NCBI GenBank assembly: GCA_902776195.1
Contig: CACYPF010000001.1
Location: forward strand, 124,001 to 188,000
From: an uncultured Prevotellaceae bacterium
GTDB lineage: Bacteria > Bacteroidota > Bacteroidia > Bacteroidales > Bacteroidaceae
Direction: 5' to 3'
DNA: 64,000 nt
Shown here: positions 3,472 through 26,736 of the stretch, piece by piece
Layout: each line of letters starts with the position of its first letter
How positions within the stretch are numbered: position 1 is the stretch's first letter
Made by a program: the position numbers and the translations under genes
Notes under the pieces: model-generated
Databases searched by the model: none
Told to the model about the DNA's origin: nothing
What the model saw: only the letters and a program-made list of their open reading frames with translations

Positions 3472-3740
3472 GCCCTCGTTTTTGCAAAATACTGTATACC
3501 AATAAGATGCACCTATAAAGGTAGAAAAATGATTTTGGTAGTTTCTTGAGCATTAGAACGAGGCGAAGATTTAACAGCACACACATTCTACAGTTACATC
3601 AATTTGCTATTATAGATGATTGAAGAAATTTGCATATGTACTCAGTGGAAATAGTTATAAAGTATGCAATCTTAACATCTACAACCATATGTAATTTTAC
3701 TTTTGATGTAATGTTCCAAGGGGATCTTGCAAGTGAAATG

Positions 3741-3940
3741 TCAGACAATGTATTTCATGTAAAGATGCATTACTGAAAGTATAGTCACTATTTGAATGAA
3801 TCTTCTGAAGATCTTTTCTGGGAGTAGTTTAACGATGCGGATTCCAATAAGTGAACCGATACCGATAACTGGTAACATCACGAGGTTAAGCTGTAAAGAA
3901 TCCCATGTGGAAAGTAGATTCTGCGTGGGAAAAGTTAGAC
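3741..3940 (-). pseudogene. Remnant of a TauE/SafE-family permease
   Basis: A short open stretch on the minus strand encodes about 66 residues that read like the C-terminus of a TauE/SafE transporter: membrane-helix-like residues, then LIGIRIVKLLPEKIFRRF, then a hydrophobic end and TGA at 3741-3743. The pattern G.LIG.R.....PE..FR is typical of the last two helices in this family. Upstream there is an in-frame stop and no start, so it is a degraded fragment. The rest of the gap between the element's left end and czcC (3472-4087) shows no other gene that I can see. Transporters of this family move sulfite, sulfonates or other anions; the original substrate cannot be told. Confidence 0.55.
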
Positions 3941-4025
3941 TTTAAGAGATAGATTAAAATAATAAACTACATCTGGATGCTTTTTTATGGAGGGCTTTGA
4001 TGCAAATTAAAAAATTCTAATTTGG

Positions 4026-4082
4026 CATGAAAGCCTTCTAATTGAATTTTTAGGCTTGTTTCATGGATATGCAGTACTTTTG
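4026..4082 (+). promoter_or_regulatory. czc promoter with overlapping inverted repeat
   Basis: A Bacteroidales -7 box TACTTTTG lies at 4075-4082, only 5 nt before the czcC ATG at 4088, so the transcript would be nearly leaderless. Just upstream, an inverted repeat (CATGAAAGCCT at 4026-4036 against AGGCTTGTTTCATG at 4052-4065, with a 3-nt interruption) covers the expected -33 region. It is a good candidate operator for the OmpR-type regulator encoded at 9561-10241. Regulation by that protein is inference. Confidence 0.6.
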
Positions 4083-4087
4083 CAGCC

Positions 4088-5365
4088 ATGAAATCATTTA
4101 AATATTACTATCTGGTTATTTTTAATTTGACATTTGCTTCTGCTTACGGGCAGAACAAGTGTATGACTATGGCTGATGTTGATAGCGCTGTAGTACGTCA
4201 TAATCTACAACTACGTACATCACATCTGAATATAGATGCTGCTGAGGGACAGTTGGCCCAAGCGAGAAAGTACGAGAATCCTGAAGTGCAATTGATGCAT
4301 AATATTCAGAATCCAGTGAATAAACGGTGGTTTGATACCGGTTATGAAGGACAGACCGACATTCAGGTTTCACAGCCGATAGCCATCGGCGGGCAGCACA
4401 GAAGTCGTGTGAAACAGGCTAAGGCCGCTTTGGATGCATGTATGGCAGAATATGAGTCAGAAAAACTTGATGTCAAGTCAAACGTGCATAATATTTTTAT
4501 TGACCTCTATTATACCCAACAGAAACTGAAGGTTTATGACAAGGAAATAGCCTCGTTGGAAAAGATATATCATGCATATGAGCAACAATCAGAAAAGGGG
4601 AATGTTTCGAAAATGCAACTATTCCGTATAAGTGCCATGATAAGCGAACTGTGTGCAGAACAGGCATCGCTGATGATGACCAGGGCTGATTTGCAAAAAG
4701 AACTGAATCTGCATATCAATATGTCGGAAGACTCTCAGATCGTAGTTGAGATGGATGAAGAAGACATGCTTCGCTATGTGACGAATACACTGGCTAAGTT
4801 GACGCCCTTTGTGACTCATCAGGATAAAAACTCATTATCTGCTTTGTTGAAGCAACATCCAGTTATGGCCCAGATGGCATACCAGCAAAAGAAGTCGCAT
4901 GAGGCTGTGAAAATAGAAAAGGCAGAAGCTCTTCCACATATCACTTTGAATGGAGAATGGGACAAGAATGGCAGCATTGGTCATAATTTCTTTGCCGTCG
5001 GTGCCACAGTCTCAATCCCATTGTGGAACAGAAATAGAGGAAACATTCGTACTGCTAAGGCGCAATATGCCCAATCAGTATTGGAGCGAGAGGCCAAAGA
5101 GAAAGAACTGATGGAAACGGTTATGATGCATTATAATACGACGAAAGTGATGCTGAAACTGGTTGAGGATCTGCAAGATAAACTCTCGACAGACTTAGAT
5201 CAGTTGTTGACTGCTGCAGAAGATCAGTTTATGAAACAACATATCTCGGTGATAGAGTTTGTAGACCTGTATGGCAGTTTCCGAGAGACCTTGTTCCAAT
5301 TAGCGGATTCCAAGGCCCAACTTATGAAAAGTAATGAAGAACTTAATAAATATATAATAGGATAA
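4088..5365 (+). CDS. czcC: CzcC-like outer-membrane efflux protein
   Basis: Outer-membrane channel (TolC/OEP family) of a tripartite heavy-metal exporter. The 425 residues begin with a signal peptide (hydrophobic stretch to about residue 21, ending SAYGQ), followed by the two OEP repeats rich in coiled-coil heptads; PEVQLMHNIQNPV and VGATVSIPLWNRNRGNI are typical strand/turn segments of CzcC proteins. It is first in an operon: its stop TAATG overlaps the start of the adaptor gene. The ATG was chosen because it follows the promoter box directly. Naming rests on the downstream HME-type pump. Confidence 0.88.
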   Translation: MKSFKYYYLVIFNLTFASAYGQNKCMTMADVDSAVVRHNLQLRTSHLNIDAAEGQLAQARKYENPEVQLMHNIQNPVNKRWFDTGYEGQTDIQVSQPIAIGGQHRSRVKQAKAALDACMAEYESEKLDVKSNVHNIFIDLYYTQQKLKVYDKEIASLEKIYHAYEQQSEKGNVSKMQLFRISAMISELCAEQASLMMTRADLQKELNLHINMSEDSQIVVEMDEEDMLRYVTNTLAKLTPFVTHQDKNSLSALLKQHPVMAQMAYQQKKSHEAVKIEKAEALPHITLNGEWDKNGSIGHNFFAVGATVSIPLWNRNRGNIRTAKAQYAQSVLEREAKEKELMETVMMHYNTTKVMLKLVEDLQDKLSTDLDQLLTAAEDQFMKQHISVIEFVDLYGSFRETLFQLADSKAQLMKSNEELNKYIIG

Positions 5366-6453
5366 TGAAGAAAGGTGTGATAATGATGGCTGGTATTCTG
5401 TTGTTGACTGCTTGTAACGATAAAAACCAGCAGGCCGATGTAGAGAAACAGATGGCAGAAATAGAGAAACAACAAGTGACTTCCACAGAACCAGTGGTGC
5501 TGGGAAATATCGACGATGAACTGATACTTAATGGTGATGTGATGTGCGACGAAGCCTTGGTGCGCAAAATCTTTGTACCCTGTACGGGTAGGGTGAAGGG
5601 GGTTACTGCAGAGGTTGGTGATAGGGTAAACAAGGGACAGTTACTAGCCACTGTGTATAGTGAGGGGGCTGCCGACTATATAAAAAGTCTGAACGATGCT
5701 GAGACGGAACTGCGTTTGGCGCAACGTGAGTATGATATGCAGGTCGACATGCACAGTGCGGGTATGGCTTCTGATAAGGAACTGACAGAAGCACGCGAAC
5801 GTGTTCACATGGCGAAAGCAGAATACACGCGTCTGCAGGACGTGGCAGCTATCAATGGTTATAGCCATCAATCGGAAGCCAAGTTGATAGCTCCCATTTC
5901 GGGTTATGTTATCAATAAAAACATATATAATGATTCGTATGTGAGCGAAGACAATAATAATGAAGCAGCAATAGAAATAGCGGATTTGCGAACGGTATGG
6001 GTTATTGCTGACGTATATGAAAGTGACATTGCCAAGGTGCATCAAGGGGCCAGTGCCACAATAACAATGATGGCATATCCCGACATGAAATATAAAGGCA
6101 AGGTAGATAAAATATACAGTGTACTAGACAGTGAGAGCAAGACCTTAAAGCTGCGTATTGTCTTGGACAATCCTGAAGGAAATCTCAAGCCAGGCATGTT
6201 TGCCTGTGTGCATGTCAGTATGTCAGACCATAGTCAGAAGATGCCCGTAGTACCTTCTTCAGCCGTTATCTTTGATGGTGGACACAACTATGTAATGGTT
6301 GCAACAGGGAAAGATATTTATGAGCGTAGAGAAGTTGATATAGCCCATGAATCTACGGGCTATAGTTTTCTGAAGTCTGGGGTAAATATCGGTGAAAAAG
6401 TGGTCACCAAGAATGCATTGTTGTACTTTAACGCAGATACAAGTCATGAATAA
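5365..6453 (+). CDS. czcB: CzcB-like periplasmic adaptor (membrane fusion) lipoprotein
   Basis: Adaptor linking the inner-membrane pump to the outer-membrane channel. The 362-residue protein starts with a lipoprotein signal (GILLLTAC, Cys 17). It has a barrel-sandwich/lipoyl segment (VPCTGRVKGVTAEVGDRVNKG), an alpha-hairpin around residues 105-165, the second lipoyl half (LIAPISGYVINKNIYND), and a beta-barrel (LKPGMFACVHV). The start overlaps the czcC stop and the end overlaps the czcA start by 8 nt, so the three genes are translationally coupled. The N-terminal His-rich metal-binding extension of some CzcB proteins is absent. Confidence 0.9.
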   Translation: MKKGVIMMAGILLLTACNDKNQQADVEKQMAEIEKQQVTSTEPVVLGNIDDELILNGDVMCDEALVRKIFVPCTGRVKGVTAEVGDRVNKGQLLATVYSEGAADYIKSLNDAETELRLAQREYDMQVDMHSAGMASDKELTEARERVHMAKAEYTRLQDVAAINGYSHQSEAKLIAPISGYVINKNIYNDSYVSEDNNNEAAIEIADLRTVWVIADVYESDIAKVHQGASATITMMAYPDMKYKGKVDKIYSVLDSESKTLKLRIVLDNPEGNLKPGMFACVHVSMSDHSQKMPVVPSSAVIFDGGHNYVMVATGKDIYERREVDIAHESTGYSFLKSGVNIGEKVVTKNALLYFNADTSHE

Positions 6454-9400
6454 ACTAATAGATTCTATCATATCATTCTCACTAAAACGTAAATACCTGA
6501 TACTTTGCCTGACTATGGTGGTCGTGGCTCTGGGGGTATTTAGTTTTAGGAATACGCCAGTAGATGCATTCCCTGATGTGACAAATACCAAGGTTACCAT
6601 TATCACACAATGGCCTGGCCGTTCGGCAGAAGAAATAGAGAAGTTTGTCACAATCCCCATAGAGATTGCGATGAACTCGGTTCAGAAGAAGACAGATATA
6701 CGCAGTACCACCCTTTTTGGATTGTCGGTAGTCACAGTGGTATTTGAAGACCATGTTGATGACGAGTTTGCACGTCAGCAAGTGTACAACATGATAAATG
6801 ATGCCGATCTCCCTGAAGGCATAGCCCCTGATGTGCAGCCATTGTCGGGGCCTACAGGTGAGATATTCCGATACACACTGTCAAGTGATCAGCGTAGTGT
6901 GCGCGAATTGAAAACACTGCAAGACTGGTTGATAGAACGCAAACTGCGTAGCGTGCCTGGCGTTGCAGATATCGTCAGTTTTGGAGGTGAAGTGAAAAGC
7001 TATGAGGTGAGCGTCAATCCAAACCAACTGGCAACTTATGGTATCAGTAGTCTGGAACTGTTTCAGGCTATAGCCAATAGTAATGTGAATGTAGGTGGTG
7101 ACGTTATTGAACGGAACTCACAGGCTTATGTGGTGCGAGGTATCGGCCTGATTAACAACACTGAGGAAATAGGCAATATCGTTGTGAAGAAGATCAACGG
7201 AACACCTATTCTGGTGCGCCATCTGGCCAAGGTACATGAATCCTGTCACCCCCGTTTAGGACAGGTAGGCCGTGAAAATGAAAACGATGTTGTTGAGGGT
7301 ATTGTGGTAATGCGAAAAGGAGAAAATCCTGAGCAGGTTATTGCAGCTCTGAAAGACAAGATTACAGAGATACAAGACGAGGATTTGCCCAAGGATGTGC
7401 ATATAATGCCATTCTATGATCGTGAAGACCTGGTGAATCTGAGCATCAATACCGTTTTCCATAATGTCATAGAGGGTATTCTTCTTGTAACCCTTGTAGT
7501 ATTCCTTTTTATGCGCGACTGGCGTTCTACGGTTATCGTGGCCAGTGTTATTCCATTGGCACTGCTCTTTGCTTTCATCTGTCTGCATCTGAATGGCATG
7601 AGTGCCAATCTTCTTTCGATGGGTGCCATTGACTTTGGTATTATTATCGACGGTGCCGTGGTGATGGTTGAGGCTTTGTTCGTTGTGCTATCCTCCCAAG
7701 CTCGTAGTATCGGTATGGAAGCATTCAACAGGCGTAGCAAGATGGGAGTAATCCGTACTACCGCCCGTGGTAAGGCTAAGTCGGTATTCTTCTCGAAACT
7801 GATTATTATCACAGCTTTGTTACCAATATTCTCGTTTCAGAAAGTAGAGGGCAAGATGTTCTCTCCGCTAGCCTATACATTGGGATTTGCTTTGCTTGGT
7901 GCCTTGATCTTCACACTGACTCTTGTGCCTGTGCTATCATCGATGATGCTTAGAAAGAATATAGCTGAGAAGAAGAATCGTTTCATGGAATGGATTTACA
8001 GACACTTTGATGCATTCTTCATACTCTGCCACCGTCACAGAAAGCGTACTATTGCCATTGCATCTGCTTGTATGGTGGCAGGCATCTCGGCTTTTGTCTT
8101 TTTGGGTTCAGAATTCCTGCCGCAGATGAACGAGGGCTCAATCTATGCACGTGCTACACTTCCTCAGAGTGTATCGCTTGAGGAAAGCGTGAAGTTGGCT
8201 AATAGGTTTAGAACAATCTTGCGTTCGTTCCCAGAAGTAAGCCAGGTGATGACTCAAACTGGGCGCCCCAATGATGGTACTGATGCAACAGGTTTCTATA
8301 ACATAGAATTGTTTGTAAAGATGAATCCGGAAAGCGAGTGGAAAACGGGTCGCAGCAAAGAACAGCTGGTGGAGGATATGAATAAACGACTGAGCGTATA
8401 TCCCGGTATAGATTTTAACTTCTCACAGCCTATATCCGACAATGTAGAAGAAGCGGTTAGTGGCGTGAAGGGGGCTATCGTTGCCAAAGTATATGGTAAT
8501 GACTTGCATGAGACAGAACGCATAGTCGAAGAGATATATAAAGTCATGAAACCTATCCGTGGTATTGCTGATTTAGGAGTAATACGCAATATCGGACAGC
8601 CTGAACTGCAAATCAATATTGATGAAGACAGACTGGCTCGTTATGGTGTGAGCAAGGATGATATTCAAAGTATTATCGAGATGGCTATCGGTGGCAAGGC
8701 TGCATCGCAGGTATATGAAGAGGAGCGTAAGTTCAATCTGGTAGTGCGTTATGACAAACCATTCCGTGATAATGAAGAGAGTATCGGTAAGATAAAAGTA
8801 CCAACAGACAACGGTCAGATGATTCCTATCAGTGAACTGGCTACCATCAAGACGATTACTGGTCCGCTTATCATTTATCGGGAGAACCATACACGTTATT
8901 GTGCGGTGAAATTCTCCGTGCGTGACAGAGATATGGGATCGGCTGTAGATGAGAGTCGTATGAAGGTAGAACAGAACATTAAGTTGCCTGCAGGCTATAA
9001 AATTGAATGGAGTGGCGATTTTGAGAACCAGAAGCGTGCCACCAGTCGCTTAGCTCAAGTGGTGCCCATCAGTATCCTGCTGATCTTTGGTATCCTGTAT
9101 GTGCTCTTCGGCAATGCCCGTGATGCTGCACTGGTATTAAGCAATGTTCCATTTGCAGCAGTAGGCGGCATCTTGATATTGCTCTTGACAGGTTTTAATT
9201 TCTCTATTTCAGCAGGTATAGGCTTTATTTGCCTGTTTGGCATCTGCATTCAAAACGGCGTCATAATGATTATGGATATCAAGCACTTCATACGTCATCG
9301 CTATCCGTTGGAGGAGGCAGTAGAGAGAGGTATGCATTCACGTATCCGCTCAGTACTCATGACTGCAATGATGGCTACTTTGGGATTGTTACCTGCAGCA

Positions 9401-9547
9401 TTGAGTCATGGCATTGGCAGTGAGAGTCAGCGCCCGCTGGCAATAGTCATCATCGGAGGATTGATTGGGGCGACGACATTTACCCTGTTTGTATTCCCAT
9501 TATTCGTAGAATTTGTATATAAAAGGGTGAATATTCGGAAAATATGA
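6446..9547 (+). CDS. czcA: CzcA-like RND heavy-metal efflux pump
   Basis: Inner-membrane RND transporter of the heavy-metal (HME) class, 1,033 residues from the ATG at 6446; longer upstream reading is inside czcB. The N-terminal helix and the PVDAFPDVTNTKV and GRSAEEIEKFVTIPIE segments are diagnostic. TM4 reads DFGIIIDGAVVMVE, giving the proton-relay acids D396, D402 and E409 that characterise divalent-cation exporters such as CzcA (Zn/Co/Cd) or Ni-type pumps. CusA, the Cu/Ag pump, lacks the first Asp. The exact metal cannot be read from sequence. The gene ends 13 nt before the response-regulator start. Confidence 0.92.
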   Translation: MNKLIDSIISFSLKRKYLILCLTMVVVALGVFSFRNTPVDAFPDVTNTKVTIITQWPGRSAEEIEKFVTIPIEIAMNSVQKKTDIRSTTLFGLSVVTVVFEDHVDDEFARQQVYNMINDADLPEGIAPDVQPLSGPTGEIFRYTLSSDQRSVRELKTLQDWLIERKLRSVPGVADIVSFGGEVKSYEVSVNPNQLATYGISSLELFQAIANSNVNVGGDVIERNSQAYVVRGIGLINNTEEIGNIVVKKINGTPILVRHLAKVHESCHPRLGQVGRENENDVVEGIVVMRKGENPEQVIAALKDKITEIQDEDLPKDVHIMPFYDREDLVNLSINTVFHNVIEGILLVTLVVFLFMRDWRSTVIVASVIPLALLFAFICLHLNGMSANLLSMGAIDFGIIIDGAVVMVEALFVVLSSQARSIGMEAFNRRSKMGVIRTTARGKAKSVFFSKLIIITALLPIFSFQKVEGKMFSPLAYTLGFALLGALIFTLTLVPVLSSMMLRKNIAEKKNRFMEWIYRHFDAFFILCHRHRKRTIAIASACMVAGISAFVFLGSEFLPQMNEGSIYARATLPQSVSLEESVKLANRFRTILRSFPEVSQVMTQTGRPNDGTDATGFYNIELFVKMNPESEWKTGRSKEQLVEDMNKRLSVYPGIDFNFSQPISDNVEEAVSGVKGAIVAKVYGNDLHETERIVEEIYKVMKPIRGIADLGVIRNIGQPELQINIDEDRLARYGVSKDDIQSIIEMAIGGKAASQVYEEERKFNLVVRYDKPFRDNEESIGKIKVPTDNGQMIPISELATIKTITGPLIIYRENHTRYCAVKFSVRDRDMGSAVDESRMKVEQNIKLPAGYKIEWSGDFENQKRATSRLAQVVPISILLIFGILYVLFGNARDAALVLSNVPFAAVGGILILLLTGFNFSISAGIGFICLFGICIQNGVIMIMDIKHFIRHRYPLEEAVERGMHSRIRSVLMTAMMATLGLLPAALSHGIGSESQRPLAIVIIGGLIGATTFTLFVFPLFVEFVYKRVNIRKI

Positions 9548-9548
9548 T

Positions 9549-9556: not shown

Positions 9557-9560
9557 CAGC

Positions 9561-10241
9561 ATGAAACATATTCTGATGGCAGAAGACGAGGAGAATATCT
9601 CTGATTTCGTGAGTAGAGGATTAAAAAACTTCGACTACGAGGTAACTGTGGTTGATAATGGTAATGAGGCATGGCGATTGCTCGAGACGGGCAGCGCCTA
9701 TGATCTCGTCATGCTGGACATCCGCATGCCTGGTATGTCGGGGCTTGAAATCTGCAAACGATACAGGGAACTCTTCGGCTACCAAACGCCCGTTCTCATG
9801 CTGACAGCCCTTGATACTACCGACGATATTGTGATGGGACTCCATGCAGGAGCCGATGATTATATATCGAAGCCGTTTAAGTTTATGGAATTGCTGGCTC
9901 GTATCCAGGCATTGTTGCGCAGAACTGAATATTCCAGAGAAGAAGGGCAGACCTCCTGCGGTGAACTGCAACTGGACGCCTCGTCGCTTAAGGTATTCCG
10001 AGGTAATCAGGAGTGGGAACTTAGTATCAAGGAGTTCCGACTATTGCAGTATCTGATGGATCACGAGGGTGAGATATTATCACGCCGGCAATTACTGAGA
10101 GATGTCTGGGATAAGGATTTTGACACAAAAACCAATATCGTGGATGTCTACATCAGATATCTTCGTCAGAAGATTGATGATGGATTCGAGAAGAAGATGA
10201 TACAGACAGTGGTAGGGATTGGATATTGCCTGAGAAAATGA
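9561..10241 (+). CDS. OmpR-family response regulator (CzcR-like)
   Basis: Cytoplasmic response regulator of 226 residues. The receiver domain (1-120) shows acidic AEDEEN near the N-terminus, phospho-acceptor D53 in MLDIRMPG, T in MLTALD and K in ISKPFKF. The C-terminal winged helix (about 130-226) has the OmpR landmarks ELSIKEFRLLQYL and VDVYIRYLRQKID. It sits between the efflux operon and its kinase, with an ATGA-type overlap to the kinase gene. It is most likely the metal-responsive activator of the czc operon, though the ligand is inferred only from context. Confidence 0.92.
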   Translation: MKHILMAEDEENISDFVSRGLKNFDYEVTVVDNGNEAWRLLETGSAYDLVMLDIRMPGMSGLEICKRYRELFGYQTPVLMLTALDTTDDIVMGLHAGADDYISKPFKFMELLARIQALLRRTEYSREEGQTSCGELQLDASSLKVFRGNQEWELSIKEFRLLQYLMDHEGEILSRRQLLRDVWDKDFDTKTNIVDVYIRYLRQKIDDGFEKKMIQTVVGIGYCLRK

Positions 10242-11600: not shown

Positions 11601-11609
11601 GCGCACATT

Positions 11610-11718: not shown

Positions 11719-11760
11719 GTAGTTTTGTATACCGTCCTGACTGACGGATTAATTCAAAAT

Positions 11761-13202: not shown

Positions 13203-13240
13203 AATTTTATATGATAGGATGGCTGATATAGTCGAAGCAT

Positions 13241-13846: not shown

Positions 13847-13998
13847 AGAATCTTCGATATAAAGTGCGTTATACTTCAAACTGTTGGACTATAATAGTGC
13901 AAGCCTTTGCAGTATCAAACTCAGCTTGCTGACACTGGGTCTTGACCCTCCGCACGTTGATTTCATCAACTGCATATTAGGCTATGCACTTTATAGAG

Positions 13999-14021: not shown

Positions 14022-14044
14022 TCGTCCACTTCAGGACGTTTCTG

Positions 14045-15475: not shown

Positions 15476-15500
15476 AGTTGTTTGAATTGTTATTGCTGTT

Positions 15501-15558
15501 CAAAAAAGAAATAAAGGGAAAGAAGGGATATAGAGCCTGTATCTCTTTCTTCCCTTTT
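15501..15558 (-). terminator. Large hairpin/terminator between vapE and mob
   Basis: AAAGGGAAAGAA..GATA pairs with TATC..TTCTTTCCCTTT around an 8-nt loop; on the minus strand it is followed by a T-rich run (plus-strand A residues at 15502-15511). It can end the HTH-vapE transcript before the relaxase. As a strong inverted repeat upstream of the relaxase it could also be part of oriT. Confidence 0.6.
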
Positions 15559-15582
15559 ATCAAAACCTGAAACGATTAAGAG

Positions 15583-15823
15583 TGTACGGTCTGTACGGGT
15601 GTGTAGGGGTGTTTTTGAAAAACTTGAAAAATGAAATCCAAGGAGGCATAGCTGCACTTGTGGAAATCAGAAAACAAATTTCAGAAACTACACGTACAAC
15701 CCCGACAACCCGTACACTTTGGCTTAAAAGCATCAGAATGGAAGAGGTTCGTCAGGATCAGGTGGTTCAAAGGGTTGGTCAAAGTCCAGCTCCGTCTGTA
15801 CGGGGTGTACGGGTTGTACGGCA
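15583..15823. repeat. TGTACGGGT iteron-like 9-10-nt repeat clusters
   Basis: Three clusters of a 9-10-nt unit. Plus strand 15583-15611: TGTACGGTC, TGTACGGGTG, TGTAGGGGTG. Minus strand 15690-15716: TGTACGGGT, TGTCGGGGT, TGTACGTGT. Plus strand 15797-15823: TGTACGGGG, TGTACGGGT, TGTACGGCA. The last cluster lies inside the vapE 3' end, where it encodes a VQP-VHP-VQ tract; the first two are non-coding. Tandem short repeats next to a primase/helicase and a relaxase suggest an origin of replication or transfer. Confidence 0.55.
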
Positions 15824-17259
15824 TCTGGCTCAGACTTTTCATCTTCCTTTGGAGGCAAAGGCTCGGCAATACGCTCGTAGGTGATGCGAGCTCGGCTGCC
15901 ATTGTTGCGATGCATACCGTCAAGACGTACCCAGCCAGGGATGTCCTCCATGAAGCGATGAACCTTGTTGCAGGTAGGGCTGTACTTGGTATTGGAAGTC
16001 TCCATGCCAAGATACTCCATGCAGAAGTCGTACGCATTCACCTGAGTACGGGCGAAGTCACCATCATGGGAGTGAGTCTTGTAATAGTTCAGACGTACTG
16101 CCTCGTCATGGAACCATGCCTTACGCCAGGATAAAGTCTGCTCCTTCCAGTCGCTTGGCAGGACAAAGTCAAGATAGGTACGTAAGCCGTCCTCCAGAGA
16201 ATCAACCTGATTGTGTCGTTCCTGCAGCTCCTTCATGTCTGCATTCACCTTACGGATAAGATTCTCGATACGAGGCATGTCGGTCTTGTAGTAGTGCATG
16301 GCTTCTGCCCAAAGCTGATCGCGGTTAGTTGCAAGCCGCTGAATACGCTCGAAGGCATCAATCTCGGTAGCATTGCACTCGACAGGCCAGAAACGACGGT
16401 TGCCTGTACTGTCTGCCAAACAGAGGATATCATTGGTCGTACCGAAGAAGATACATTGGCGCTTGACATCCACATTGTGCTGACCGTAGGGAGGTCGGTA
16501 GCTGTCCGTGGAACTGGAAATGTAGCTCTTGACGCTGCTCGCCTCTTTCTTGGAGAAGGAGTTCATCTCTGCGATCTCCACAATCCACTTACCCTGAAGG
16601 GCGATGTAACCATCCTTGGAGTTGATGTCAATGGCAGAGTTGGTCACCCACTCGCCACCCAACACCTGAGCCAGTGAACTCTTGCCAGCACCCTGCTTGC
16701 CGATAAAGACAGGCATGAACTGGAGGTTGCACCCAGGCTCAAAGATGCGCTTCACAGACATGACCATGAAGCCAAGGGCAGCCTCACGGTAGAGTAGAGT
16801 GTCCTCCGCTTTCAGGTGGTCAATGAAAAGACTCTCGATACGTGGAATGCCATCCCACACAAGGGTGTTCAGGTAATCACGCACAGGATGGTAGCTGTTC
16901 TCATGTGCTACAATCGTCAGAGCCTTGGCAATCTTCTTGTCGGAGAAGCCGCCCATGCGGTAGCCTTCAAGATAGCTGGCGAGGTAGGCATCACTGGTGT
17001 CGTTCCAGGGAGCCACCTCCTTCTGCCAAGGCACATCGCGTACATCAATGACTGTGGAGAAGTCATTGTGACGGATCTTGCCTTGGAGAAGGGGATCGTT
17101 CGTCAGGATAGCAATGATGTTGTTGATGGTTCCAGCCACCTTGATTGCACCCTTGCCGCTCTTCTCCCATTTGAGATCGAACTTCCACCGCTGCTCGGGA
17201 GGTGCGCTCTCCCTCTCATCTAATGAAAGGGGGAGCCAGATCTCATTGTCTAACATCAT
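15733..17259 (-). CDS. VapE-type (virulence-associated protein E) primase/helicase
   Basis: P-loop replication protein of the VirE/VapE family, common in satellites and mobilizable elements. The 508-residue reading starts at the ATG at 17259, which overlaps the HTH gene stop as ATGATG. Walker A is GKQGAGKSS (187-195), followed by WIVEIAEMNSFSKKEASSVK (Walker B region) and FFGTTND (sensor), with SYRPPYG and GNRRFWPV as further family landmarks. No Zn-finger or Toprim primase domain is present in this chain. The acidic Pro-rich C-terminus is encoded by the 9-nt repeats. It probably supports element replication after excision or transfer. Confidence 0.85.
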   Translation of the reverse strand: MMLDNEIWLPLSLDERESAPPEQRWKFDLKWEKSGKGAIKVAGTINNIIAILTNDPLLQGKIRHNDFSTVIDVRDVPWQKEVAPWNDTSDAYLASYLEGYRMGGFSDKKIAKALTIVAHENSYHPVRDYLNTLVWDGIPRIESLFIDHLKAEDTLLYREAALGFMVMSVKRIFEPGCNLQFMPVFIGKQGAGKSSLAQVLGGEWVTNSAIDINSKDGYIALQGKWIVEIAEMNSFSKKEASSVKSYISSSTDSYRPPYGQHNVDVKRQCIFFGTTNDILCLADSTGNRRFWPVECNATEIDAFERIQRLATNRDQLWAEAMHYYKTDMPRIENLIRKVNADMKELQERHNQVDSLEDGLRTYLDFVLPSDWKEQTLSWRKAWFHDEAVRLNYYKTHSHDGDFARTQVNAYDFCMEYLGMETSNTKYSPTCNKVHRFMEDIPGWVRLDGMHRNNGSRARITYERIAEPLPPKEDEKSEPDAVQPVHPVQTELDFDQPFEPPDPDEPLPF

Positions 17260-17630
17260 ACGCGTACATTCTTTGGCTTGCGACGATGAGAGGCGAGGAT
17301 TGAAGCATTCATCTCCTCTTGTGTCAGAGGAACTGGGTTGACGCGACTTGCCTCTACCCACATGTCCAACTCATCCTGATAGAGAACCCATCCCTTTGCA
17401 GGCTTGCAGCCAGGTATGTCACCTCCTGCAAGTTTCTCATAGATGGTGGACTTGGGAATCTTGAGGTAATTCGCAGCGTCCTCTATTGACATAGGGATGT
17501 GCTTGTCTTTCTTCATCGACTCTCTCATAAGTTGCAGCAGCTCTAACTGAGTCTGCTTCATGCTCGCTACTTCATCCTGAAGCCGAGCAACGACCGTTGG
17601 CAGGTCGTTGAAAGTAATTGTAACTGCCAT
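17256..17630 (-). CDS. Helix-turn-helix (excisionase-like) DNA-binding protein
   Basis: Protein of 124 residues with a MerR/excisionase-type helix-turn-helix of the HTH_17 type: MSIEDAANYLKIPKSTIYEK then GDIPGCKPAKGWVLYQDELDMWV. A short N-terminal coiled segment precedes it. I chose the ATG at 17630 because the longer frame would read through the 73-bp repeat at 17662-17733. With this start, that repeat lies 31 nt upstream, close to its spacing at the integrase gene. It is coupled to vapE by stop/start overlap. Likely a regulator or recombination-directionality factor. Confidence 0.75.
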   Translation of the reverse strand: MAVTITFNDLPTVVARLQDEVASMKQTQLELLQLMRESMKKDKHIPMSIEDAANYLKIPKSTIYEKLAGGDIPGCKPAKGWVLYQDELDMWVEASRVNPVPLTQEEMNASILASHRRKPKNVRV

Positions 17631-17661
17631 AAGCATAAACGTCAAAATCAGATTTGACGCT

Positions 17662-17733
17662 GCGAATTTCGCAAATGATGTAATGCTGACACCTGTCATT
17701 ATTAGTCAGCAGGAAATCAGTTTGGAATCAGTA
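17662..17733 (-). promoter_or_regulatory. Copy A of a 73-bp duplicated control sequence
   Basis: Nearly identical to 21833-21905, with a shared 19-nt core AAATGATGTAATGCTGACA followed by CTGTCATT, GTCAG, AATCAGTTT and GAATCAG. It contains TGACA/TGTCA inverted half-sites and tandem AATCAG words. Located upstream of the HTH-vapE genes. Confidence 0.75.
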
Positions 17734-17796
17734 CAAAAAAGATTGAGAGAGCGAGTTTTAGACAGTAAATTCTATAGAATAAGAGGGAAAAAGACA

Positions 17797-17834
17797 TAAA
17801 AAAGCCCCGACTCCGTTTGATGGGAATCGAGGCT
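17797..17834 (-). terminator. Terminator of the satD operon
   Basis: On the minus strand AGCC-TCGA-TCCC pairs with GGAGTCGGGGCT around a short loop and is followed by six T residues. It starts about 33 nt after the stop of the two-TM protein gene and separates that operon from the HTH-vapE genes. Confidence 0.7.
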
Positions 17835-17866
17835 ATGAAGGCTCGTGTTGAGTGTTATTATCGGTT

Positions 17867-18946
17867 TTAGATGCTTTGTTCAAGCAACTCGTAATGGAAG
17901 GCTATGCTGCCCTCATCGGGTTTGTCGTACTTGATATGACCTTCAAGAGGTCTTTCCTTGATGTTTTTATAGATAGCAGGTTCTTCCAATTGCTGACAAG
18001 TCTCAGCAAAAAGTGCTTTTATGAACTGAGATCTGTTGTGCCCTATGTAGTTCTTGCCGAGTCTCTCACTAATGTTGCAAATGAGATGCCGAGCATCCAA
18101 GGTGGAAAACTCTCTATAAACGTGGACACCTTCTGTTGGAAAATATTCAGGATCTTTTATCCATTCAAGCACTTCCTGACATAGTCTTTCTACCTGATCT
18201 TTGGGCATGAACGGTGGCATGGCAACCTTCAGATATGCCATGATGGCATTCACCTTATCCGACTCTCTCTTCTTGCGTGCCTGTTCATGGGCAGCAATGG
18301 TGTCAAGATATGACTCACCTCCAATCGTAGTATCTACATCCGAAATATCTGCAAAAGGTGCTGCTGATGTTGGTTGGGGCACTTCAACGTTCACTACAGG
18401 AGGCTCAACTTTAACTTCGGGAAGTGTAACATTGATGGTCGGTGATTCTACGTTGACATCGGTAGGAGCCTGGGCTTCGGCATTGGCTTGGGCAGCAGCG
18501 TGGGCAACTGATATAGCCTCGACCATGTTGACATTGTTGTTGGTGATGTCATTGACCACATTGTTTACAACCTCGGTATTGACCTCGTTGATGATTTCGT
18601 GTTGGTTGACGATGGTGTTCTGGACGACAATCTGAGGTTGCTGCGGTTCTGGGCGTGTTACCTCATGGCTCTGTACCTCTGCCAGTTGCTTCTTGCGAGC
18701 TTCCTCTGCAAGTTTCTCTGCCTTGATGCGCTCGCGTTCGCTCTTGGGAACCATATTTTCCAGTTGTGAGAAAATTTGCCATACACACGCACAAGCGAAT
18801 ACCGCGATGCCTACGGTGCTGATAATCGCTATGAAATAATCATGGGTCTTGTCGTACAATGCGACATACACCACCGTTGACATGATGATGCACGCCACCC
18901 ACAAAGAAATAAGTAGCCAGAGATTACCTTTCTTGTTGTTTACCAT
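17867..18946 (-). CDS. Two-TM membrane protein with conserved C-terminal domain, unknown function
   Basis: A 359-residue protein, not recognised. Two transmembrane helices (about 8-30 and 36-56) are followed by a charged coil (KSERERIKAEKLAEEARKK). A long low-complexity linker rich in V, N and P comes next, with repeating VVNNVVNDITNNN and INVTLPEVKVEPP words. A folded C-terminal domain (about 225-345) contains PKDQVERLCQEVLEWIKDPE and HLICNISERLGKNYIGHNR. It is the third gene of an operon with DUF3307 and SatD-like genes (4-nt spacing) and ends at a clear terminator. The architecture (membrane anchor, flexible spacer, cytosolic domain) fits a sensor or effector, but that is inference. Confidence 0.7.
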   Translation of the reverse strand: MVNNKKGNLWLLISLWVACIIMSTVVYVALYDKTHDYFIAIISTVGIAVFACACVWQIFSQLENMVPKSERERIKAEKLAEEARKKQLAEVQSHEVTRPEPQQPQIVVQNTIVNQHEIINEVNTEVVNNVVNDITNNNVNMVEAISVAHAAAQANAEAQAPTDVNVESPTINVTLPEVKVEPPVVNVEVPQPTSAAPFADISDVDTTIGGESYLDTIAAHEQARKKRESDKVNAIMAYLKVAMPPFMPKDQVERLCQEVLEWIKDPEYFPTEGVHVYREFSTLDARHLICNISERLGKNYIGHNRSQFIKALFAETCQQLEEPAIYKNIKERPLEGHIKYDKPDEGSIAFHYELLEQSI

Positions 18947-18950
18947 AAGC

Positions 18951-19664
18951 TTATAATAGATGAGAAACGGCTATGCCTGTAAGTATAGCAATGGTGAAAC
19001 TTGCAAGTGTTCCGATCAACACATATTCTGTCGTGCGAATTTCTTTTGCCTTATTCAACTCGCCAAAACGGAAGACGGACTTTGCTGCCAGCAAGAAACC
19101 TACTCCTTCCATACTGCCAATGAGAACAAACGTAAGTATCAGGATTCGCTCAATATAACCAATCCACTGTCCTGCATTTGGCAGACTCTGGGTGTTTGGT
19201 GATGCAGGGGTCCACTTGTCAAGGAACAAACTCAATAGGATGGATGAAGGCTTTAGCATCAGTATGTACGCCATGCCAACAAACCAGACTTTCGAAGAGC
19301 AAGGACATGCCATACAAGAAAGTCCAATCTTTTCACCGTATAAGAAAAACCAAAGTATTCCAATGACTATGATATGAGCGAACTGGTCTGTAAGGAATAT
19401 CGTAAGGGAATCTTTATGGAGCTTACACTTTATCATATCTATGAGGAAGTGGCTCACGAGAATGACCACAGGAATCTGCCAACACCACCACTCTGCAACA
19501 AACAAATATGCTACAATTGCGTGGATCATACTGTGAAGAGTCAAGTAGCCCAAGCCCTTGCTTCCAGACTTACGCTTACCATTATTAATTGCATCTGTCT
19601 GAAAAATAAAGTCTGAACACAGATGAGCACAAAGAAGTTTTATCAAAACAATGAACGCTTCCAT
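18951..19664 (-). CDS. DUF3307 polytopic membrane protein
   Basis: Membrane protein of 237 residues with about six hydrophobic helices. The conserved polar residues of DUF3307 are present: H14-x3-D18-x3-Q22, H44 and H48 (LHSMIH), H72-x3-D76-x2-K79 (SHFLIDMIK) and D93-x3-H97 (DQFAH). Several His/Asp pairs inside helices suggest a metal site or enzymatic activity, but no biochemical function is established to my knowledge. It starts 1 nt after the SatD-like gene stop and is followed 4 nt later by the two-TM gene. SatD-like and DUF3307 genes occur as neighbours in other bacteria; I recall this rather than having checked it. Confidence 0.75.
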   Translation of the reverse strand: MEAFIVLIKLLCAHLCSDFIFQTDAINNGKRKSGSKGLGYLTLHSMIHAIVAYLFVAEWWCWQIPVVILVSHFLIDMIKCKLHKDSLTIFLTDQFAHIIVIGILWFFLYGEKIGLSCMACPCSSKVWFVGMAYILMLKPSSILLSLFLDKWTPASPNTQSLPNAGQWIGYIERILILTFVLIGSMEGVGFLLAAKSVFRFGELNKAKEIRTTEYVLIGTLASFTIAILTGIAVSHLL

Positions 19665-19665
19665 A

Positions 19666-20304
19666 TTAGTGTTTGATGAATTGTGAAATATGTAATTTGT
19701 TATATTCTATATAGTCCTGGATTAACTGGATTCTGGCAGATGTCCAATGTGAGTTGAAGTTCTGCTTTGTCAATCCTAAGTCTGCCGCCATATCCTTCTG
19801 TGTCTTAGGGTACAGCAATGAGTGATATGCAACTTTTGACTGTTTGACAGTCCATGAAGATACAACATCATCTGCGAAGCGTGTAACGAGTTCCATTGAA
19901 TTGTTGAATTCTAGCCACGGTGTGGTTATTGTCAGTTTTTTCTTGCCCATAGCGTCAAAAGCTCTACCTGACAATCTGAATGCCTCGCCATCACTGGTAA
20001 CTATATTGTCGCTTTCGAAGGAAACATCACCGATTCCAACAGAAATTCTGGCATCCCATATCTCCTTCTTTTCGGGTGTAGAAGCACGAAGTTTTGCCCT
20101 AATTGCAATAGCTATAGTCAGCGAGAGTTCAGGATTGTCCACAACGACCTGAAAACTATCGCCTCTGTACATCTCTATTTTTATTGGAGTCAGTGGCGAA
20201 AAGTCAGTGACACACGCATTTAATGCATCTACAACAGTCTGTCGCCATTCGACTGCAATATTGGTGGAGTTGACCAAATCTCCTGTAATAACACCTTTAA
20301 TCAT
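19666..20304 (-). CDS. SatD-like/nucleotide-cyclase-like protein with C-terminal HTH
   Basis: Protein of 212 residues. The N-terminal domain resembles SatD and class III cyclase folds: GDLVNST (D9) and YRGDSFQVV (D49) sit where the two metal-binding Asp residues of a cyclase would be, and RISVGIGDV and GRAFDAM follow. The C-terminal part (about 155-200) is a SatD-type helix-turn-helix: YPKTQKDMAADLGLTKQNFN. It could therefore be a nucleotide-sensing or nucleotide-making regulator. First gene of a three-gene operon with its own promoter and a set of TTGATT palindromes, probably autoregulatory. Catalytic activity is not shown by sequence alone. Confidence 0.75.
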   Translation of the reverse strand: MIKGVITGDLVNSTNIAVEWRQTVVDALNACVTDFSPLTPIKIEMYRGDSFQVVVDNPELSLTIAIAIRAKLRASTPEKKEIWDARISVGIGDVSFESDNIVTSDGEAFRLSGRAFDAMGKKKLTITTPWLEFNNSMELVTRFADDVVSSWTVKQSKVAYHSLLYPKTQKDMAADLGLTKQNFNSHWTSARIQLIQDYIEYNKLHISQFIKH

Positions 20305-20326
20305 AGATATAAACTATTTGTTGATG

Positions 20327-20505
20327 CAAAGGTAATACATTTTCTTGATTAAGTCAAGCGATTATGGTTGATTTTGCAAAATCAAGCTAATTTATTTGAT
20401 TTTTTAACATATTATGATAGATCTATCTTGCACAACACAAGATTTATCATACAAAATCAAAGGATTTTACTTGATTTCAAAGAATCAATGGAATTAAGTT
20501 GATTT
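20327..20505 (-). promoter_or_regulatory. satD promoter with TTGATT palindrome array
   Basis: Minus-strand -7 box TACCTTTG (20327-20334). Upstream is CTTGATTAAGTCAAG (20344-20358), an imperfect palindrome covering the -33 region. Further upstream are a perfect 18-bp palindrome TTGATTTTGCAAAATCAA (20368-20385), TTTGATT (20396-20402), TTGATTTCAAAGAATCAA (20471-20488) and TTGATTT (20499-20505). Also GATAGATCTATC (20416-20427). The repeated half-site suggests cooperative binding by a repressor, possibly the HTH of the first gene product. The region to the integrase stop (20506-20584) shows nothing else. Confidence 0.65.
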
Positions 20506-20584
20506 GTACCGATAGTAAAATTTAAGGGAGAACATTTGAGTCCCCCCTTACAATGTGGCTTTCCTTAGCAATCTTCATAACCTC

Positions 20585-21781
20585 CTAAGCACTCTCAGCA
20601 GGGTTAACCTGTACTGATATTGGCGCATCTGGTTCTGGTGCAGGACTCGTTGTTGGCTTCAGCGTGATACGATTAACAGAAGCCTTCTTGGTCTCATCAC
20701 TCATGTCAGCATAGATCTGAGTGGTCTCGACATTCTTGTGTCCGAGCATTCGTTGGATGGCATAGATGCTTGTTCCGGCATCAGCTTGAAGAGAACCGAA
20801 GGTATGGCGAGAACAGTGGTAGCTGATGTGCTTGGTGATGCCGCTCGCGTCAAGCCAGTCCTTCAATGGCTTCTGTGTCATACAGTTTCGCAGCCCCACA
20901 AATACCTTGTCTGTAGGTTTACGGTCGGCATCCTCATCGTGGAACCCAATGAGTTCAAGTGCTTCCTCGCTGATAGGATTCTTGATGAGCTGCTTGGTCT
21001 TCTGCATACGTACAGTGATAAACATGCCTCCATCACCATATGGCTGAATCTTGTTCCAAGTAAGTGCCATGATGTCGCTCTTTCTGAGTCCTGTGAGGCA
21101 TGAAAACAAGAATGCTTCCTTCAACACCTGATGCTTGCATGGAGTCTCTGCAAGAGTGATAAGTTCCTGCTGGGAAAGATGCTCTTTTTCGGTTGGGATG
21201 GTGTCAATCCTGTCAAGGTAGCCATTAGGATTGTCCTTAATCTTATGGTCACGATAGGCGGTATGGAGAACTGCACGGAAGGTTGACCAATAGCCGGAAG
21301 CGGTGTTTGTGTGCAACTTGACTGTTGGATGCTTCAACTGAGTCGTTGTAAGCAGAAACTCCATGAACTTGACACATAGGTCAACGTTGATTTCTTCAAA
21401 AGTGCACTTTCCTTCTACGAACTTCTCAAAGTACTTGTACACATTCTGCCACTTGGTGTTCTTCTTGTCTGCTTTCTTTTTGAAGTAGTCAAGGAAACTG
21501 CCACGGAGTTTGTTGCGGTCAAAGAAGTCGTATCGTTCGTTTACAATGCTCTCGAATCGGTTGCAACGAACGGCTTCTGCTTTCTCAGTCATGGTCTCAT
21601 TGTAAAGTTTCTCACGCTGATTCTTTGGCTTGGCATAGATGTAGATGCCGAGCGACTCATGACGGATTGTCTTCATGCTCTCCTCATCACGATAACCAGG
21701 ATAGTAGTCGAGATAAAACGAAAGCTGTGTACCGTTCTTGATAGGTCGGGTACGGAGGGTTACTGTCTTGCAAATATTCAT
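20585..21781 (-). CDS. Tyrosine recombinase/integrase
   Basis: Site-specific recombinase of 398 residues that would insert and excise the element. N-terminal arm-binding region (1-95, KNGTQLSFYLDYYPGYRD), core-binding SAM-like domain (about 95-200), then a catalytic domain with R233 (TGLRKSDIMALTW), K263 region, H322-x2-R325 (YHCSRHTFGS), H348 (RMLGHKNVETTQIYADM) and nucleophile Y357. All catalytic residues are present, so it may be functional. Similar in layout to the integrases of Bacteroidetes mobilizable and conjugative elements. It lies 1.4 kb from the right junction. Confidence 0.93.
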   Translation of the reverse strand: MNICKTVTLRTRPIKNGTQLSFYLDYYPGYRDEESMKTIRHESLGIYIYAKPKNQREKLYNETMTEKAEAVRCNRFESIVNERYDFFDRNKLRGSFLDYFKKKADKKNTKWQNVYKYFEKFVEGKCTFEEINVDLCVKFMEFLLTTTQLKHPTVKLHTNTASGYWSTFRAVLHTAYRDHKIKDNPNGYLDRIDTIPTEKEHLSQQELITLAETPCKHQVLKEAFLFSCLTGLRKSDIMALTWNKIQPYGDGGMFITVRMQKTKQLIKNPISEEALELIGFHDEDADRKPTDKVFVGLRNCMTQKPLKDWLDASGITKHISYHCSRHTFGSLQADAGTSIYAIQRMLGHKNVETTQIYADMSDETKKASVNRITLKPTTSPAPEPDAPISVQVNPAESA

Positions 21782-21832
21782 AATACAATACGGTTAAAGT
21801 TGAACTTACGAGGCTAAGCTTCTCTTAGCGTC

Positions 21833-21905
21833 GGCAAATTTCGGAAATGATGTAATGCTGACAACTGTCATTTTCTGTCAGTACAGAATCAGTTTAGAAT
21901 CAGCA
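21833..21905 (-). promoter_or_regulatory. Copy B of the 73-bp duplicated control sequence
   Basis: Second copy of the sequence at 17662-17733, 51 nt upstream of the integrase ATG. Shared core AAATGATGTAATGCTGACA, then CTGTCATT, GTCAG, AATCAGTTT-GAATCAG. Position before both operons argues for common control of integration and replication/mobilization. Confidence 0.75.
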
Positions 21906-21929
21906 TATCTTTCTGAAATTTGTTAGACC

Positions 21930-22865
21930 TCAGACCTGTAATCCCTTCATTTTTCGTTCATTCATCACTCTTTCAATGTCGGTTCTGAGAAGTAAGTTTC
22001 TCACTCCGACCTTGACTTTTTCTACCTTATTATTACGGACAATATGACTGATGTTCGCTGCGGTAAGTCCATACATTTGCTTTACATCCTCAACCGTCAT
22101 ATAGCGTTCGTCGTTCGCCAGATCCATGCGGCGAAGTTCATCAAGATGTTGCTTCGAGTAATATGTTACACCATACTCTCGCTTGCTTGGGATGTGGTGG
22201 CGGTTCACATATGCTCTCACTGCTTGCGGATGCATTGAGTATGTTGAAGCCACTTCATCCGTAGTCAGCCATTCGGTGATATTGCTTACGTCAACACCGC
22301 TGAAATGCATGTCAATATGTTGTTTACTGTAATATGTCTTGCCTGCAACCTTGCACATAGGTATCTTATGAGCTTTGGCGCGACTATATAACCAGGATTG
22401 CTTCACCTTATAGATGCGCATGACATCTTCTCCAGAATAGTAGTCAAGAACTTCCTCGGCATCCTGATAGATGGATGCTGGCTTCTTTACATCTGGTTTC
22501 TTTCCCTTTGGTTTTACCATAGGGAGAACTCGCTCGTATGGACTTGCATCAAGCATATCCTCAATATCAGACTTCTTTATAAGAGACATGCGTCGGCTTA
22601 GACGTGATGCTTTCAGTCTTCCTTGACCGACTAACTTGTAAATGTATTGGCGAGTGCAACCCATGAGGATGGCTGCATTTGCAAAAGTCAGGTACTCCTG
22701 GCACTGAACCATAGCCATCGGTTCTATTGCCTTGAACATCTCACGCTTCTGCTTCTTCTTATTTTGCTTTGCAGTATCAGCACACTGTTCACAGCAATAC
22801 TTCTGACTGCCTGATTGTGGAGAAAACTCCCTGCCGCAATGGGCGCATTTCCTTGTGATATTCAT
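21930..22865 (-). CDS. Zn-ribbon protein with four tandem HTH units
   Basis: DNA-binding protein of 311 residues. A zinc ribbon at the N-terminus (C7, C10, C24 or C25, C28) precedes a basic linker and four HTH_17-like units, each of the form 'helix-turn-helix then wing': YLTFANAAILMGCTRQYIYK (58-110), YSGEDVMRIYKVKQSWLYSR (about 141-190), WLTTDEVASTYSMHPQAVRA (about 198-245) and YMTVEDVKQMYGLTAANISH (about 253-302). Such proteins usually contain one unit; four suggests binding to a repeated site. A 10-bp-phased array lies 60-165 nt upstream of its start. Probable excision/integration accessory factor or master regulator. Confidence 0.8.
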   Translation of the reverse strand: MNITRKCAHCGREFSPQSGSQKYCCEQCADTAKQNKKKQKREMFKAIEPMAMVQCQEYLTFANAAILMGCTRQYIYKLVGQGRLKASRLSRRMSLIKKSDIEDMLDASPYERVLPMVKPKGKKPDVKKPASIYQDAEEVLDYYSGEDVMRIYKVKQSWLYSRAKAHKIPMCKVAGKTYYSKQHIDMHFSGVDVSNITEWLTTDEVASTYSMHPQAVRAYVNRHHIPSKREYGVTYYSKQHLDELRRMDLANDERYMTVEDVKQMYGLTAANISHIVRNNKVEKVKVGVRNLLLRTDIERVMNERKMKGLQV

Positions 22866-22924
22866 TGTTTGCGAAGATTAGAGATTTGTACATCTTTTCA
22901 TATCTCCACCGCAAGTCACTCCAA

Positions 22925-23029
22925 GTAAACCGTTGTCAACACGTGTAAACTCCTCGCACGATGTTGCAAACCGCATCAACTTGCCCCTAGTTTGTCAACC
23001 ATTGTAAACGCTCGTCATCCCGGGTAAAC
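22925..23029. repeat. 10-bp-phased GTMAAC array near the right end
   Basis: Hexamers GTAAAC or GTCAAC begin at 22925, 22935, 22945, 22994, 23004 and 23024. Degenerate members lie at 22966 (GCAAAC), 22975 (ATCAAC) and 23014 (GTCATC). The spacing of about one helical turn puts them on one DNA face. The rest of the 22866-23212 gap shows no gene. Confidence 0.65.
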
Positions 23030-23212
23030 TGGCTTCACAAAGTGACAAAAATAAAGCTCCGAAGATTCTCCGCGGTAGAAATACGATGCAAAATTAGGCG
23101 GAAAATTCGGAACTAACAAATATGAACCTCGAAGTGTTAAAATTTAGGAGAAGCTGATATTCAGCACTTTAGTTAGAGTTGTTTTGTGTTATTCATGGTT
23201 ATTTAGGTATTG

Positions 23213-23773
23213 CTACATACAATATTGGAACGCATAATCTCCAATTGTTTTCACACCTTCAGGAATTGTTATAGCTGTTAAACTTGTACATTCCTTAAAT
23301 AAACCATAGCCTATGGAGGTTAAATTATCTGACAAAACTATCGATGTCATGTTATTACAGTTCTCAAAGGCTCTATCGTCAATAGTAGTTACGCTATTGG
23401 GGATAGTGATAGAAGACAATTTGGAACAACCATAAAAAGCAGAGCTACCGATTGAAACTACACTACTCGGTATAGTGACAGACATTAAATTTTGACAATT
23501 GCTAAAAGCCTGTTCACCAATAGAGTTCACACTATATTTTATGCTATTGTAATAAACCTCATTTGGAATCTGCAATGTACCAATATACTTATTGGTAACA
23601 TATATACTACTATTATTAGCATATGTCACAGAGGCTGTTTGGGACTCATTATCTAAATTGTAGTAAATACCACCAATACAGGCATCATATGCAAACACAT
23701 TTCTTCCAACTAAACTTAGAAAAACTGTCAATAAAATGGCTTTAAAATGATTCATATTCTTTTTATAATTCAT
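23213..23773 (-). pseudogene. BspA-like LRR surface protein, N-terminal fragment
   Basis: N-terminal part (186 codons) of the interrupted surface protein. Signal peptide MNHFKAILLTVFLSLVGR..VFA with cleavage near residue 28, a short beta-rich cap, then BspA LRR units such as SVTIPSSVVSIGSSAFYGCS. The frame reads to Cys 185 (codon 23219-23221) and then ATG-TAG inside the element. The next repeat unit is completed exactly by NSLSSLAIPSS of the fragment at 685-3471. It still has its promoter and could make a truncated secreted peptide. Confidence 0.88.
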
Positions 23774-26718: not shown

Positions 26719-26736
26719 GATCGATAAACTTTTTGG

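Follow-up and report, generated by a model that had tools for sequence, protein, structure and literature searches.

What kind of element has split a bspA-like gene in this stretch of Prevotellaceae DNA, and why does it lie inside a leucine-rich repeat (LRR)? The stretch, referred to below as the window, comprises 64,000 nucleotides (G000:C1:124001-188000) of a 288-kb contig in a 2.97-Mb assembly, and it contains two bspA-like gene fragments, both on the minus strand, that lie about 19.7 kb apart. From sequence comparisons, the intervening DNA is very probably an integrative and mobilizable element with a Tn4555-related module, which inserts in the manner of Tn916 with 6-bp coupling sequences and prefers, in one orientation, the BspA-type LRR sequence 5'-GCN-TTY-N6-TGY-3'. 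This sequence encodes Ala-Phe-x-x-Cys, the best-conserved segment of that repeat. Mobilizable elements of this kind are known; the targeting variant is new.

One gene in two halves

The two fragments are placed between open reading frames (ORFs) at 1-681 and 24124-26739, which, from their translations, we take to be a LytTR-type regulator gene and a malQ-like gene, respectively:

685-3471, minus strand: C-terminal bspA-like fragment with LRRs, a dockerin, and a C-terminal tail (ORF list; Pfam LRR_5 4.6e-87, Dockerin_1 2.7e-9)
23222-23773, minus strand: host part of the N-terminal bspA-like fragment, with a signal-peptide-like start and LRRs (ORF 23213-23773; Pfam LRR_5 4e-37)

LRR_5 exceeds the PF13306 cut-off in both fragments, which makes the target a BspA-type LRR gene. 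Read on the minus strand from 23773, the N-terminal fragment ends inside an LRR as ...GDYAF QY C, and a Met codon and a stop, both supplied by the element end, follow directly after the Cys.

The original prediction saw here a single gene, divided by an integrase-borne element and capable of being rejoined in frame. This is supported by single-ORF homologues in two congeners as well as by the geometry of the junctions. A 963-aa ORF (L067) matches the N-terminal fragment at 41% over residues 5-185 and the C-terminal fragment at 39% over 2-708, and a 782-aa ORF (L073) does so at 48% over 8-185 and 35% over 83-711. The break had been placed at a Cys codon shared by the two sides (3469-3471 and 23219-23221); the in-frame split stands, with the element ends shifted slightly, to about 3478-23221. 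The rejoined protein, predicted to be complete, does combine LRRs with a dockerin, and its signal-peptide-like start was judged by eye; the predicted sorting tail has no match in Pfam or NCBIfam, which leaves that label unconfirmed. Since the gene is split within its LRRs, the insertion would be expected to abolish the function of the surface protein and thereby switch off an adhesin.

Might the two fragments be separate genes, with the element merely in between? The nearest genome that we met (G051; neighbouring gene 96% identical) lacks both fragments and thus offers no orthologous uninterrupted gene: its malQ and LytTR genes lie about 400 bp apart, with neither a bspA-like gene nor an element between them. 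This gap implies that the bspA-like gene was either gained in the lineage of the window or lost in G051, and we rejected G051 as proof of an empty site, since the bspA gene is missing there too. The single-ORF homologues match both halves, the N-terminal fragment stops and the C-terminal fragment begins inside a repeat, and the break falls on the same LRR codon at either end, with 6-bp couplings that other copies of the element also show. On the strength of the homologues and the junction geometry we rejected the separate-gene explanation, which we regard as hardly credible. As an observation in its own right, the interval in G051 (L066, 8379-8781) is about 400 bp long and contains short motifs that recur, recognized by eye; it occupies the place of the bspA-like gene and the element.

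Element ends and coupling sequences

The element that divides the gene extends over approximately 3478-23221 (19.7 kb) and has a 6-bp coupling sequence on each flank. Its ends were assigned by transfer from those of a 10.06-kb relative, present at 15 loci in 14 genomes, whose inner aligned stretches are 99.5-100% identical (the L141 copy was aligned over only 2.7 kb). These copies are nearly identical but their flanks differ, so that the ends are directly readable: the right end is TGTATTTATAACC, the left end is GGTTGTAAATAC, and six bases lie between each end and host DNA. Both element ends are present in the complete genome of an isolate, Prevotella communis E15-14. Transferred to the window, the features are:

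3472-3477, minus strand: int-distal coupling GAGGGC, codons E-G of EGC (from junctions of other copies)
3478-3487, minus strand: int-distal element end with the core TTGCAAAAAC (compared with TTGTAAATAC and similar sequences in other copies)
23206-23221, minus strand: int-proximal element end TGTATGTAGCAATACC, which adds Met and a stop behind the shared Cys codon (the match to L182 runs inward from 23220)
23222-23227, minus strand: int-proximal coupling CAATAT, codons Q-Y of AFQYC (from junctions of other copies)

The couplings are given in the sense of the target gene, and TGT is common to host and element. Each coupling supplies the two variable residues of the A-F-x-x-C motif of the LRR, between the Phe and Cys codons, and because both are 6 bp long, the codon phase of the two gene halves agrees no matter which coupling stays behind. 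No long direct repeat of the attachment-site (att) type was found at the two element ends, the longest exact match being one of 10 nt between LRR stretches; its absence fits a coupling-sequence mechanism. Both ends are readable beside LRR DNA in 12 copies (the window, L064, L102, L103, L117, L142, L149, L151, L155, L292, L307, and L319; several left ends were read by eye). The couplings are identical in two of these (L064 and L149, with the same six bases on both sides) and different in ten, among them L151 (GCTACT versus GCACGT). In all of the 12 copies except L142, TGY comes next after the left coupling, in frame with the LRR.

A survey of insertion sites

Does the element reach this kind of gene by habit or by accident? 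The window integrase was searched in 399 genomes of the genus, of which 104 matched at E <= 1e-60. Sixty regions from the upper part of the match list and six further regions gave 66 loci; two truncated integrases (G087:C100 and G333:C36) were skipped, and ten regions of a fourth list as well as the lower matches lie outside the sample. A second set, which overlaps the first, took 80 loci from named genomes (the best 80 of 357 relatives). A search across the family, made with the integrase of the 10.06-kb relative, called the cfxA type because it carries CfxA (NF033100), matched 83 of 399 genomes at E <= 1e-90 and added 40 regions, some of them repeats.

Twelve of the first 66 loci plus the window were dropped for an unrecognized int-proximal end (L061, L062, L108, L110, L139, L150, and L156-L161) and two for having almost no flank (L121 and L145); the corresponding losses were 15 and two among the 80 named loci and five and one among the 40 from the cfxA search. 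L182, whose element is nearly identical to that of the window, was left out, its junction lacking the TGT with which the end pattern starts. The 150 remaining junctions were reduced to 104 distinct ones by identity of the 60-nt host flank. LRR calls in these counts were made by phmmer against the LRRs of the window itself (E < 1e-3), not by Pfam.

The pooled distinct sites of these related integrases lie in sense-strand BspA-type LRR genes in 79 of 104 cases and in antisense LRR in one of 104. Within the window clade the figure is 63 of 72, with 59 in the same codon phase; for the cfxA type it is 13 of 29 (12 in phase), and for a third integrase group three of three. The named set, restricted to loci where an end was recognized and the host DNA reached 150 nt or more, gives 57 of 63 in LRR genes and 54 in phase. 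In many copies, LRR-coding DNA in the same orientation starts directly at the int-proximal end. LRR_5 DNA makes up 10,149 nt, or 0.34%, of the window's own genome; doubling this share for flanks, one would expect 0.5 of 72 sites, if sites are independent and that genome is typical. The suggestion that surface-protein repeat DNA serves as the integration target thus holds well beyond this locus, and the comparison of sequences demonstrates the target bias, orientation, and phase, along with the ends and couplings.

The junction itself is sharply placed. It falls exactly at F-x-x before the Cys codon in 65 of the 66 in-phase sites, and the base composition there resembles that of 362 further F-x-x-C sites within the same fragments, from which any such repeat seems usable. 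TTY stands at the same position in ten of the 25 sites outside sense LRR genes. At one of these ten (L138) the host reads AATGCTTTTAACGGC and then, across the junction, TG. The long ORF at this site runs antisense and none of the frames scored as LRR, suggesting that the DNA sequence rather than the gene is read.

Kinship with Tn4555 and a candidate targeting factor

What machinery could bring about such placement? The element carries the following genes:

4088-9547, plus strand: efflux operon with an outer-membrane factor, a membrane-fusion protein, and a CusA/CzcA-type RND pump
9561-11425, plus strand: response regulator and histidine kinase
11756-13207, minus strand: insertion sequence of the IS4 family, nested within the element, with its transposase at 11855-13132 and terminal inverted repeats of 24 nt
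13241-13879, minus strand: helix-turn-helix (HTH)-like ORF adjoining the relaxase gene (HTH_3 below the Pfam cut-off)
14045-15475, minus strand: MobV relaxase (NF041497, 125.7 bits, cut-off 100)
15733-17361, minus strand: VapE-like primase/helicase
17256-17699, minus strand: excisionase-type HTH protein, 53% to WP_004338328 over 115 aa
17867-18946, minus strand: TnpC-like protein, 31% to WP_004339687 over 179 aa
18951-19664, minus strand: DUF3307 protein
19666-20304, minus strand: ORF with no match in Pfam or PHROGs
20585-21781, minus strand: tyrosine recombinase with Arm-DNA-bind_5, SAM_5, and Phage_integrase (Pfam), 59% to WP_004338318
21930-22865, minus strand: multi-HTH protein, 57% to 'transposon Tn4555 protein TnpA' WP_004292844 (protein comparison, Pfam)

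The mobile-element content foreseen between the fragments is therefore present in the tyrosine recombinase, the excisionase-type HTH protein, the MobV relaxase, VapE, and IS4. The integrase gene is complete, as predicted, and lies about 1.4 kb away from the element end rather than at it; it accounts for the only Phage_integrase match on the 288-kb contig. Int and MobV are accompanied by no mating-pair protein among the ORFs named in the element, with no search aimed at conjugation genes having been made.

Int is 59% identical over 375 aa to WP_004338318, whose gene adjoins that of an annotated Tn4555 TnpA, and the TnpA-like protein is 57% identical over 309 aa to the annotated Tn4555 TnpA; the tnpA-like gene lies directly upstream of int in both. 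These percentages refer to records that annotate Tn4555 proteins, not to the original Tn4555 sequence. By homologous Int, TnpA upstream of int, and 6-bp couplings, the integration module can be assigned to the Tn4555 family. The cfxA type connects to the same family: its element occurs nearly unchanged in plasmid records of B. fragilis, B. thetaiotaomicron, B. faecis, and B. ovatus, and Tn4555 TnpA and TnpC annotations flank the integrase in two of the five plasmid records opened. One B. fragilis record, CP103138.1 (L323), is a 10,057-bp circle consisting of the cfxA-type element alone. Separately, a 10,063-base contig (L318) ends at both element ends and is either a collapsed repeat or a free circle.

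The LRR preference would come either from Int alone or from TnpA. A targeting role for the TnpA-like protein, with Int needing only a short core, seems to us plausible, at slightly less than even weight. The protein contains three HTH_17 stretches (Pfam), and its homology and gene position match those of Tn4555 TnpA, deletion of which makes Tn4555 insertion essentially random according to an extract of a review (PMC5704250). The cfxA-type TnpA, 57% identical to that of the window, nevertheless goes together with many other sites. The same extract names a B. fragilis locus of 589 bp, containing a direct repeat of 207 bp, as the preferred target. The figure 207 equals three LRR periods of 69 bp, a numerical lead only, as the B. 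fragilis locus is not identified as an LRR gene; among 30 LRR loci in the genus of G668, several have repeats at 69, 138, and 207 bp.

Also in favour of a role for TnpA, a more distant integrase clade, about 53% identical to the window's, combines a different address with an HTH protein that is divergent and longer (521 aa in L062), encoded upstream of int. At L157-L160 its int-upstream flank adjoins an apparent mnmE 3' end, the upstream ORF being what we take to be MnmE; its C-terminus reads ..FC[IV]GK-stop in L158-L160, and L157 stops earlier (..NIFSNLN-stop). In an integrase tree with a midpoint root and long-branch warnings, the four mnmE-labelled copies group in a separate clade (100/100), and the window integrase sits on a long branch; the LRR label requires 7 changes, compared with a mean of 12.4 after shuffling. 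Integrase relatives occur in 115 phage records, with a best near-full-length match of 50%.

Movement between species

Has the element moved recently? Window positions 14588-23220 (8,633 bp) are 99.98% identical to an element in RUG14547, a Prevotellaceae metagenome-assembled genome in whose name RUG presumably stands for rumen. The best malQ match in RUG14547 is only 50% identical, which points to another species, and the element lies there in what reads, by eye, as a different LRR gene. At the level of sequence, this demonstrates recent spread of the window's element between species. The 10.06-kb cfxA-bearing Tn4555-type element is likewise nearly identical at different sites (L142:7983-18041, L146-L149, and others; plasmid records H1-H6), and its occurrence across many genomes and several genera reads as recent wide spread. 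Elsewhere in the window, at 58065-60107, a DUF6371 gene stands next to an AAA_25 gene; this pair also occurs in the cfxA-type element and is possibly a remnant of another mobilizable element.

Weighing the preference for LRR DNA

Several findings weigh against insertion by an LRR-seeking, coupling-type mechanism. (i) The preference is incomplete: nine of 72 distinct window-clade sites and 16 of 29 cfxA-type sites are not in sense LRR genes, and four of the 63 LRR sites of the window clade do not keep the codon phase. Most copies elsewhere do sit at sites that agree with the ends seen here, the nine being those that differ.

(ii) Single copies deviate. In L142, near 7983, the int-distal flank loses the LRR frame, unlike in other copies; the RUG14547 junction, read by eye, lies away from any AFxxC motif; and the joint in CP103138.1 is shortened and lacks part of the inverted core repeat, so that no intact attP is shown.

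(iii) Alignment with related genomes, which the original prediction had proposed, yielded the single-ORF homologues elsewhere in the genus, and no strain was found with an uninterrupted copy of the split bspA gene at its locus.

(iv) The end pattern used to find junctions starts with TGT, which means that the TG there is partly built in.

(v) In the window's own genome an extended form of the motif, GCN-TTY-N6-TGY-N6-YT, is found 87 times, against 29 for a backward control, and only 41 of the 87 fall inside LRR_5 stretches or no more than 400 nt away from them. We therefore rejected the short motif as the full explanation of the window clade's 88% LRR use: either something more is read, or insertions outside LRRs are selected against.

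The latter thought leads to an alternative in which the integrase has low specificity, for TTY-N6-TG or AT-rich sites, and LRR insertions survive as harmless while others are lost by selection. The many other sites of the cfxA type, the TTY found outside sense LRR genes, and the essentially random insertion of Tn4555 without TnpA (extract of PMC5704250) all agree with it. Harmlessness, on the other hand, predicts neither the single orientation nor the codon phase (59 of the 63 window-clade LRR sites), and it leaves unexplained why the window clade so rarely hits other dispensable DNA. We consider this alternative improbable and prefer an element that favours the Ala-Phe-x-x-Cys codons of the LRR in one orientation.

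Proposed mechanism and its consequences

How might such an element move? The recombination chemistry, the part of TnpA in targeting, and mobilization by a helper would fit together as follows. Int, aided by Xis, would excise the element as a circle whose joint keeps one coupling, and the relaxase would let a helper transfer it. Once in a new cell, the circle would be recombined by Int, perhaps steered by the TnpA-like protein, into an LRR unit at the point between its Phe and Cys codons, after which the target protein would end at the Cys codon. In the window clade the element end would add an immediate in-frame stop (TGT-ATN-TAG/TAA and similar); in the cfxA type, in the form of it that is commonest in the set, the target frame continues for some further residues. 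After excision one of the two couplings would stay behind, and the frame would be regained with two residues perhaps changed.

A coupling of exactly two codons makes both insertion and excision in frame and the two variable residues exchangeable. Each 69-bp LRR unit with the motif can be an attB, so that a genome with many BspA genes offers dozens of redundant sites. Going further, we advance tentatively, and as a rather unlikely idea, that a protein-level consensus acts as the address: the Ala-Phe-x-x-Cys codons kept by selection would form tandem attachment sites across Bacteroidaceae, at which elements switch off and edit surface repeats. If this is true, each cycle of insertion and excision can swap two LRR residues in frame.

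Tyrosine-recombinase elements are known to land in tRNA genes, in other single conserved sites, or in AT-rich DNA. A multi-copy surface-protein repeat as address would link the spread of cargo, here efflux for the window element and the CfxA beta-lactamase for the sister type, to surface-gene disruption in gut and rumen bacteria. It may explain broken BspA-like genes in these genomes, and it makes testable what TnpA of Tn4555 recognizes.

Comparison with known systems

Which known system does the element resemble most? Tn916-type elements favour AT-rich DNA, whereas the window element uses the coding motif of one protein repeat. With Tn916 and other coupling-sequence elements it shares differing short end sequences, as if from successive sites.

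Tn4555 agrees with the window element in the order of the related Int, TnpA, TnpC, and Xis and in having coupling-type ends without long repeats. The Tn4555-type (cfxA) element differs in having a DUF6371/AAA pair and a 467-aa mobilization protein in place of the MobV relaxase and VapE. The cargo differs as well, cfxA in Tn4555 and an efflux operon here, and we found no description of a strong LRR DNA preference, as in the window element, for Tn4555. Its relaxase is given as MobP in the review extract (PMC5704250), in contrast to the MobV of the window element (NF041497, above cut-off).

MTnPi1-3, mobile elements of Prevotella intermedia, share an 11-bp att site, and LRR targets go unmentioned in the available part of that report (PMC4755523). 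No LRR target for such elements is reported in literature titles and the beginnings of abstracts among the matches listed, which are mostly non-subscription and hence weak evidence.

Strand-biased circularizing integrative elements and Tn554, as far as an extract describes them (PMC10214605), are alike in their 6-bp footprint and fingerprint and in imperfect inverted end repeats; they have several recombinases and are thought to be non-mobilizable, whereas the window element has one recombinase and a relaxase. SGI1-type islands, inserted at the 3' end of trmE (mnmE) (PMC8409611), are like the related mnmE clade in this genus, from which the window clade is set apart by targeting multi-copy LRR repeats inside coding regions.

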